Source of the DNA: Opitutia bacterium Tous-C4FEB
Lineage (GTDB): Bacteria; Verrucomicrobiota; Verrucomicrobiia; Opitutales; Opitutaceae
Assembly (NCBI GenBank): GCA_002304445.1
Contig: NEVA01000004.1
Coordinates: forward strand, 124,001-188,000
DNA length: 64,000 nt
Direction of reading: 5' to 3'
The notes beneath the pieces are model-generated. The model was not told the DNA's origin, did no database searches, and was given only the letters and a program-made list of their open reading frames with translations. Positions 51,701 to 53,827 of this stretch are shown here, piece after piece; within the stretch, counting starts at the first letter, position 1; each line of letters starts with the position of its first letter. Made by a program: the position numbers and the translations under genes.

Positions 51701-51826
51701 GGAGATGAGACGCTGTGGGTTTGGCGGGGTTGCGTCAAATGCCGAGCTGACCAAAGCGGTGAAACGAACGACACCTGAAATTCCCTCTTGTCTCGCATTG
51801 GCGGGTCGGGCCATTTCTTCGCGGAC

Positions 51827-52201
51827 ATGACATCCGAAGCGTATCTCCCTTTTCTCATCCAAGCACTCTTGGCCGGCGGAGTGACGGCATTTGTGATTGG
51901 GGCGAGCCACTTTTTCGGTCAGCGAGCCAAGCTCAATAAAATCAAGGATACGGCCTACGAGTGTGGAGTGCCGTCTGAAGGTTTAGTCCACACCCGCTTC
52001 TCGGTTAAATTCTTTCTCACCGCGCTGTTGTTCATGCTGTTTGATTTGGAGATCGTGATTCTGGTGCCGTGGACGTTTATTTACCGCGAGTTTCTGGCGA
52101 ACAACATTCCGATCATCGGTCCGATCATGTTTTTTATCGGGGTCTTGGTGCTGGGCCTTTTCTACGAGGTGAAAAAGGGCGCATTGGATTGGGAAAAGTG
52201 A
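51827..52201 (+). CDS. nuoA: NADH-quinone oxidoreductase subunit A, standing alone
   Basis: A 124-residue membrane protein with three spans. Its hallmark segments are YECGVPSEGLVHTRFSVKFF, containing the conserved Cys, and LLFMLFDLEIVILVPW with acidic residues. Together with subunits B, C, D and others it builds the quinone-reducing complex I. Here no nuoB or other subunit follows; the next gene (26 nt downstream) encodes a diadenylate cyclase fusion. The remaining subunits must be elsewhere. The ATG at 51827 fits the family N-terminus. Confidence 0.92.
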   Translation: MTSEAYLPFLIQALLAGGVTAFVIGASHFFGQRAKLNKIKDTAYECGVPSEGLVHTRFSVKFFLTALLFMLFDLEIVILVPWTFIYREFLANNIPIIGPIMFFIGVLVLGLFYEVKKGALDWEK

Positions 52202-52227: not shown

Positions 52228-53571
52228 ATGCGGCTGGAAAAAATCATCGCCCGAAATCGAATTATCGATTTGCGGAGCGTTGATTTGGAAGGGGCATTGC
52301 AGGAATTGCTGACGGTGAGCGTGGCGAGCTTCCCCGACCTGAAACCGGATGCTTTGCTCAAGGGATTGTTGGCGCGCGAGAGCACGATGACGACCTATTT
52401 GGGGCTCGGCGTGGCATTGCCGCATGTGCGGGTAAAAATGCCCCGCCGGTATATTCTCGCGATCGGGCGCAGTCGTGCGGGGATCAAACACGACGGCGCG
52501 TTGGCCGAAGAGCGGGTGCATTTGATCGTGATGTTGATCGCCGGAGAAAAGGCCCGCGATTACCTGCAAGTGCTGGCCTCCATTGCCCGGCAGGTAAAAG
52601 AACAAACGATGGTCGATGGTCTCGTGCGGGCGCCGGACCTCGATGTGTTTTACGAGCGGTTGGTCGGCGGCTTTGGCGCGGTGCGGCCGGTTTTGGCCCA
52701 GAGGAATCGCGTAAACCGGCTGATGCTGCGCGAAGCGATGCGGGTGACGCGAGGGGCGGATTGCAATGCCCTGATGGTTTTTGGGGATACGTTTGTGGGA
52801 GGCATCGACCGCGGCGCGTTTGACGAGAAGTTGAAGACGATCCTGGTCACCCGCAACCCGATCGAGCCCGGTGAACACGAGCACGAGTTTTCCGAGACGA
52901 TCCAAGTTCGCTCGTTTTCGAACCAGCGGATGGCGCAATTGCGCAGCGCCATCCTCGTCGCCCTGACCCGCGGGGTTCTGAAATTCACGGACCGGATCTG
53001 CTGTCTGGATGGAATGAGCGGGAGCAACCAGTTCGACACGTTGGTCGTGGTCGACATCGAGCGCGAGTTTCAGACTCTCCTGACTGGCCAGACTGCGGAT
53101 CTTCTACCCGAAGATGTTAAGCCTGAGGTGCTCGAACGGGTGTTGGCGGTAGCGACTGAGCTCGCGGTTGAGGGGCGGGAGGGCCGGCCGGTCGGTTGTC
53201 TGTTTGTGGTCGGCGACACGGAAAAAGTGGCGGGCCTGAGCAAGCCACTCGTTTTGAATCCATTTTTTGGCTACAAGGCCGAGGAAAGAAATATCCTGAA
53301 TCCCTTTATGGATGAGACGGTTAAGGAATTTTCGTCCATCGACGGAGCCTTTACCATCCGTGGCGACGGCGTCGTGGAGTCAGCGGGTAGTCTGATCCAA
53401 GCGATGGATAACAACCATGCTTTGCCGAGCGGTTTGGGGAGCCGTCATGCGGCGGCGGCGGCGATCAGTATCGCGACAAACTGCATTGCGATCGTCGTTT
53501 CTTCGAGCACGAGTCAGGTGACTCTTTTCCGCCGGGGTGTGATGCTGCCTCTGACCGAAAAGCGGCGGTGA
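52228..53571 (+). CDS. c-di-AMP synthase with EIIA-like and PK_C-like domains (EIIA-PK_C-DAC fusion)
   Basis: A 447-residue soluble protein in three parts. Residues 1-150 resemble a PTS EIIA-2/PtsN domain, with LGLGVALPHVRV placing His66 at the phosphorylatable position. Residues about 160-285 resemble the pyruvate-kinase C-terminal-like alpha/beta domain seen in archaeal DacZ/CdaZ (ADCNALMVFGDTFVGG, KTILVTRNP). Residues about 300-440 are a DisA_N diadenylate cyclase domain: GREGRPVGCLFVVGD, DGA at 372-374 and GSRHAAA at 404-410. It should convert two ATP to c-di-AMP, possibly controlled by PTS-type phosphorylation. No membrane span. 26 nt downstream of nuoA. Confidence 0.85.
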   Translation: MRLEKIIARNRIIDLRSVDLEGALQELLTVSVASFPDLKPDALLKGLLARESTMTTYLGLGVALPHVRVKMPRRYILAIGRSRAGIKHDGALAEERVHLIVMLIAGEKARDYLQVLASIARQVKEQTMVDGLVRAPDLDVFYERLVGGFGAVRPVLAQRNRVNRLMLREAMRVTRGADCNALMVFGDTFVGGIDRGAFDEKLKTILVTRNPIEPGEHEHEFSETIQVRSFSNQRMAQLRSAILVALTRGVLKFTDRICCLDGMSGSNQFDTLVVVDIEREFQTLLTGQTADLLPEDVKPEVLERVLAVATELAVEGREGRPVGCLFVVGDTEKVAGLSKPLVLNPFFGYKAEERNILNPFMDETVKEFSSIDGAFTIRGDGVVESAGSLIQAMDNNHALPSGLGSRHAAAAAISIATNCIAIVVSSSTSQVTLFRRGVMLPLTEKRR

Positions 53572-53662: not shown

Positions 53663-53827
53663 ATGCAAGAAGTCGTCACACTAGAATGCACCGAAGCGAA
53701 GAAAGAGGGCAAACCCGCTTCCCGCTATCTCACCTTCCGTAATAAGAAGACCGTCACCGAGCGCATCGAGAAGAAGAAGTATAATCCCTTCCTCAAGCGC
53801 CACACGCTGCACAAAGAGATCAAGTAA
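53663..53827 (+). CDS. rpmG: 50S ribosomal protein L33
   Basis: A 54-residue basic protein ([20 protein letters not shown] and then [10 protein letters not shown]), with the typical [17 protein letters not shown] end. The single Cys means it is the zinc-independent form, lacking the CxxC pairs. A small r-protein of the 50S E-site region. It has its own strong terminator 38 nt downstream, and no Shine-Dalgarno sequence precedes the ATG. Confidence 0.93.

Follow-up and report, generated by a model that had tools for sequence, protein, structure and literature searches.

An EIIA-DacZ_P-DAC fusion as the standard diadenylate cyclase of the Opitutales: comparative support for control by a phosphotransferase relay

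The diadenylate cyclase class DacD reportedly originates with Corrigan and Gruendling 2013, and a classification of these cyclase architectures is said to have been given by Galperin 2023. The common bacterial enzymes CdaA, DisA, CdaS and CdaM share with the protein studied here the DAC fold, the DGA motif and the GxRH core, but differ from it in their regulatory parts, which in the fusion are an EIIA and a DacZ_P domain. The archaeal DacZ (CdaZ) has the same order of a PK_C-like domain followed by DAC, whereas the fusion carries an extra EIIA domain at its N-terminus. PtsN (EIIA-Ntr) is like this EIIA domain in fold (Z 14.3) and in the LPH phospho-histidine motif; in the fusion, however, the EIIA is joined to a cyclase and Tyr112 replaces the usual second His. 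Braun et al. 2019 listed proteins of Opitutae/Puniceicoccaceae as DacD, naming members from Lacunisphaera, Puniceicoccaceae bacterium, Coraliomargarita, Verrucomicrobia bacterium and Opitutae bacterium (PMC6741144). In the papers found there were no functional or biochemical data on this class, and no test of phosphorelay control over the fusion was apparent in that literature. Two questions meet in the fusion: which inputs govern diadenylate cyclases, and what EI, HPr and HPr kinase/phosphorylase (HPrK/P) do in bacteria without PTS permeases. If His66 of the fusion is phosphorylated, one protein would answer both, with the PTS writing directly into c-di-AMP. New in this study is comparative support, drawn from sequences, for PTS control of c-di-AMP.

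The fusion gene lies in a window of 64,000 nucleotides (the whole stretch of DNA that was analysed) from Opitutia bacterium Tous-C4FEB. The features of the locus are as follows.

51788..52201, + strand: nuoA, NADH dehydrogenase subunit A (PF00507, 8.5e-27); ends 26 bp upstream of the cyclase start codon.
52228..53571, + strand: EIIA-DacZ_P-DAC fusion, 447 aa, ATG to TGA; predicted diadenylate cyclase, probably of class DacD.
52228..52674, + strand: EIIA (PTS_EIIA_2) domain, residues 1-149; Pfam 6.1e-16, 1a6j fold with Z 14.3.
52423..52425, + strand: His66, predicted phospho-acceptor in an LPHVR motif; where the genome has EI, 71 of 78 homologues carry it.
52705..53076, + strand: DacZ_P domain, residues 160-283; Pfam 8.1e-29, pyruvate-kinase-C fold with Z 11.2; putatively ligand-sensing.
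53098..53565, + strand: DAC (DisA_N) cyclase domain, residues 291-446; Pfam 2.2e-20, DisA and CdaA folds with Z 15-16.
53341..53349, + strand: DGA catalytic motif, D372-G373-A374; no variation at D372 and G373 among 92 homologues.
53443..53451, + strand: RHA of the GxRHxA motif, R406-H407-A408; no variation at R406 and H407 among 92 homologues.

The Pfam search placed PTS_EIIA_2 at residues 21-144 (E 6.1e-16), DacZ_P at 160-283 (8.1e-29) and DAC at 313-438 (2.2e-20), all three above the curated cut-offs; the PTS_EIIA_2 domain reached 59 bits and the DAC domain (PF02457) 72.8 bits, each against a cut-off of 27. The AlphaFold2 model of the full-length protein was of middling confidence (pLDDT 69) because the alignment input was limited to close relatives, and the middle domain was therefore modelled separately (pLDDT 73). 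Compared with the PDB, residues 1-149 of the model matched EIIA-Ntr 1a6j (Z 14.3, 146 residues aligned) and residues 291-446 matched DisA and CdaA (Z 15-16). For the separately modelled middle domain the match was to pyruvate kinase 3srf over its C domain (Z 11.2, 117 residues aligned), and the best 50 matches were pyruvate kinases only, aligned over the C domain with Z 10.6-11.2. Score, EIIA fold and phospho-histidine place the N-terminal domain in EIIA type 2. The three domains that the preliminary description had read from the sequence (EIIA-like, PK_C-like and DisA_N cyclase) are thus borne out by Pfam and by the predicted folds, including the EIIA match expected for the first 150 residues, and the phosphorylatable His66, the DGA and the RHAA motif stand where that description had placed them. 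Its comparison with DacZ was equally sound, as seen in the DacZ_P domain and in the best NCBIfam match, Diadnylcyc_Halo (NF041371), to which the fusion scored 120 bits against a cut-off of 430, being related to the haloarchaeal equivalog but outside it. Scores with the NCBIfam models of CdaA, CdaS, CdaM and DisA were 26.5, 24.1, 27.6 and 21 bits, far below their cut-offs of 189-225.

The layout had also been set apart from that of the common bacterial synthases, with an already described family of the same architecture named as the finding that would speak against it. Such a family appears to exist, and the reading as an undescribed architecture was rejected: DacZ_P has a curated Pfam entry, and DacD is the class under which Opitutae proteins have been listed (PMC6741144). 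Since this listing covers the same taxa, the fusion is probably a member of the named class DacD, apparently uncharacterised as far as the literature found shows; the likeness is one of taxonomic range (Opitutae/Verrucomicrobia). The N-terminal EIIA-2 with a DacZ-like core is what Pfam gives for the fusion itself. The fusion or its core occurs in most of the 105 Opitutales genomes.

The closest relatives belong to Opitutaceae (Verrucomicrobiota), with identities of up to 99%. In the phylum sample the DAC domains of Opitutales genomes were divergent by the Pfam model (E about 1e-17 to 1e-23), whereas nearly all other Verrucomicrobiota had DAC matches with E of 1e-32 to 1e-44, like CdaA-type enzymes as judged by score. 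From these sequences we infer that the DacZ-like fusion replaced a CdaA-type cyclase in the order Opitutales. It is the standard diadenylate cyclase of this order: the fusion or a related DAC was found in 94 of 105 genomes, and the 11 absences come mostly from a search with the window protein, which a highly diverged cyclase could escape. In three genomes a shorter DacZ-type cyclase of about 300 aa was seen (L217, L216 and L218 in G173, G234 and G226), consisting of DacZ_P-DAC without EIIA; G173 and G234 have it as a second copy, and in G226 no other cyclase was found. On one metagenome contig (L071) the open frame of the homologue begins at residue 71, yet the tblastn match covers residues 1-447, and a frameshift within the EIIA domain is possible.

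Among 92 aligned homologues D372, G373, R406, H407 and S425 were invariant. The fusion reads G404-x-R406-H407-A408 and, like its relatives, lacks the third Arg of the CdaA-type RHR; the residue after RH was never Arg in the 92 homologues, and the second-copy DacZ-type proteins of Opitutales also lack it (GSRHLA or GSRHVA). The Ala in this third position and the missing His ahead of DGA would fit a DAC domain that is dead or makes another product, the protein then serving as a PTS-regulated nucleotide sensor. We hold this to be highly improbable. Besides the five invariant residues, those matching D172 (DGA) and R203 (GXRHRXA) of Leptospira CdaA, where substitution of either abolished activity, are both present in the fusion, and DisA-type enzymes are still active although they have no His before DGA (PMC12974146). 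The DacZ of Haloferax, which belongs to the same branch, is an active enzyme (PMC6741144). In addition, no other DAC-domain protein was found in the genome of the fusion, and cyclase and PgpH tend toward joint loss. The reading of RHAA as the sign of a dead cyclase was hence not supported, and what the preliminary description had entered as a caveat is not a defect.

This genome has PgpH (7TMR-HDED, 7TM and HD), which was found in 97 of 105 Opitutales genomes. DAC was also undetected in 6 of the 8 genomes without PgpH (Fisher p 7e-6; p 5e-5 when G245, which lacks every gene sought, is left out), where the four f3 genomes among the 6 may represent one event. These four (G102, G236, G254 and G267) are nearly complete, without detectable DAC and PgpH, and have kept EI, HPr and HPr kinase; an entire c-di-AMP system was apparently lost there. 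The c-di-AMP riboswitch (RF00379, 57-70 bits) was rejected as an output, because no more than 4 of 105 Opitutales genomes had it (L224, L225, L226 and L227), with neighbour genes that follow no clear pattern, and was not found in this genome.

The genome encodes its own EI (TIGR01417, 605 bits, cut-off 342; motif SKTSHAVIVAR), HPr (TIGR01003, 92 bits, cut-off 48; motifs GIHARPA and NGKSIMG) and HPr kinase/phosphorylase (TIGR00679, 338 bits, cut-off 240). This EI is PtsI-like, without the GAF domain of PtsP, the HPr bears a Ser46-type motif, and the fusion scored 38 bits with the PtsN equivalog, far under the cut-off of 138.7. Given these features, an input from the nitrogen PTS (PtsP-PtsO-PtsN) was rejected for this genome; the relay is of the EI/HPr/HPrK type. 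It had been proposed earlier that nitrogen-PTS phosphorylation sets c-di-AMP output; the PTS link of that proposal is supported by comparative genomics (below), the nitrogen type is contradicted by the relay proteins. Neither EIIC (PF02378) nor EIIA-man was found in this genome, and in the 105 Opitutales genomes they were found in 9 and 1, respectively. Where EIIA of the PtsN/mannitol type usually has its second active-site His, the aligned residue is Tyr112 in 78 of 78 proteins from EI-bearing genomes, and the transfer chemistry may therefore differ. Two EIIA-2 proteins were found in this genome, the fusion and one further protein.

G000:C4:42133-42552, - strand: separate EIIA protein, 195-codon frame with LPHAR motif (L220).

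This separate EIIA, near which gyrA-like and CorA-like frames were seen, may compete for the phosphate of HPr and might be its main acceptor. Of 105 genomes, 52 have the fusion as their only EIIA-2 protein; 40 of these 52 have EI and HPr with no EIIC found, and His66 is kept in 38 of the 40.

Homologous proteins were extracted and aligned, and in genomes with EI His66 was present in 71 proteins and replaced in 7, whereas in genomes without EI it was present in 5 and replaced, or the domain lost, in 10 (Fisher p 5e-6; this test ignores kinship). As related genomes are not independent, loss events were counted on a tree built from the cyclase core, with the EIIA columns excluded. Five losses (f69, f56, f66, f68 and f67) fell on 8.4 units of EI-less branch and two (f54 and f3) on the other branches, 27-30 units in all. 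Scaled to cyclase divergence, the loss rate of His66 or of the whole EIIA domain was thus about 9 times higher without EI (p 0.005-0.01, depending on the branches counted), in an ad hoc, branch-length-scaled test with a Dollo-like parsimony reading, a quick tree with long branches and about 7 events. An independent-pairs test of EI against His66 lacked power, with only 3-4 pairs available, and did not reach significance. The EI-less proteins still carry D372, G373, R406 and H407, and the loss is thus specific to the phosphorylation side. f66 and two f67 genomes have lost the EIIA domain entirely and retain a DacZ_P-DAC core of roughly 300 residues. The exceptions are the EI-bearing f54 (Tyr) and f3 (Ser or Cys), which lack His66, and the EI-less G212, G198, G209, G217 and G202, which have it. 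Most of the EI-less genomes are small (0.8-1.1 Mb), evolve fast and are fragmented; general erosion of a regulatory domain, or EI genes that were missed, could therefore contribute. Taken as comparative genomics, these patterns support phosphorylation control of the fusion.

The EIIA domain might instead be mainly structural, with a metabolite on the PK_C-like DacZ_P as the real input and His66 kept by descent and lost by relaxed selection in small genomes. The fast evolution of the EI-less lineages is in line with this, as is the DacZ_P-DAC core standing alone in four EI-less genomes, in the second copies of G173 and G234 and in the sole cyclase found in G226; PK_C domains are also known to bind allosteric ligands in pyruvate kinase (PMC6741144). 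But in f68 it is His66 alone that has changed, to Tyr, while R50, E51, P65 and R68 stay, which points to a targeted change and not to general decay, and the roughly ninefold faster loss without EI persists even when scaled to cyclase divergence. We regard a mainly structural EIIA as improbable.

The account that we consider probable is a c-di-AMP cyclase whose output is set by phosphorylation of His66 through EI and HPr, together with a ligand of the middle domain, and which reports the supply of PEP to cation and turgor control. The fusion would make c-di-AMP from ATP. Cytoplasmic EI and HPr would carry phosphate from PEP to His66 in the EIIA part of the fusion; HPr kinase/phosphorylase is also present beside this relay, and no EIIC permease was found. 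The phosphorylation state of His66 and a putative ligand of the PK_C-like middle domain would then set cyclase output, c-di-AMP would be removed by PgpH, and its level may in this way report PEP supply to cation and turgor control. It is slightly favoured that phospho-EIIA activates the cyclase, or that unphosphorylated EIIA inhibits it, because EI-less lineages repeatedly discard His66 or the whole domain.

Potassium and osmolyte transport are usually governed by c-di-AMP. A second EIIA fusion was seen in Opitutales, in which Na_H_Exchanger and TrkA_N are followed by a C-terminal PTS_EIIA_2 with an IPH or LPH motif. Two of these Na_H_Exchanger-TrkA_N-EIIA fusions were checked for domain content (n=2).

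L231:250-2508, + strand: Na_H_Exchanger-TrkA_N-EIIA fusion.
L232:403-2703, + strand: Na_H_Exchanger-TrkA_N-EIIA fusion.

Several further Opitutales genomes have open frames similar in length (739-767 aa) that give EIIA matches. In E. coli it is PtsN in its unphosphorylated form that binds the K+/H+ antiporter YcgO and inhibits it (PMC11808508). By analogy the EIIA of the cyclase could be a protein-interaction module that docks the enzyme on a cation transporter or another partner, so that c-di-AMP is placed locally and phosphorylation at most tunes docking, not catalysis. The EIIA joined to exchangers in Opitutales would agree with this, and EIIA domains with Tyr for His are retained in f54 and f68, so the domain can be useful without phosphorylation. 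Pure docking does not, however, require the His66 that is found in 71 of 78 proteins from EI-bearing genomes, and we think such a module unlikely, if less so than a structural EIIA. With the cyclase under phosphorylation control, a coherent reading is that the PTS has turned into a regulator of monovalent cations via two fused outputs. In a wider form, for which we see about an even chance, the permease-less PTS of Opitutales (EI, HPr, HPrK/P) would have been rebuilt as a PEP sensor, with the diadenylate cyclase as its main EIIA-2 output, the sole one in many genomes, and sometimes a second EIIA on a Na+/H+ exchanger; carbon-energy status would then set c-di-AMP and cation balance directly, by His phosphorylation.

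The nuoA gene, already reported as the neighbour of the cyclase gene, indeed precedes it with a gap of 26 bp, and the two are probably co-transcribed. The same arrangement, nuoA directly upstream and co-directional, recurs at 67 of 93 Opitutales loci with a gap of about 60 bp in the median, which makes the pair an old, conserved unit; past nuoA the neighbours are only partially conserved. Genes for cell shape and wall, namely MreB-like, MreC-like and penicillin-binding-protein-like frames, lie further upstream of the cyclase on the opposite strand. Just downstream of the cyclase, a short ORF on the + strand (53663-53827) reads as ribosomal protein L33 (rpmG).
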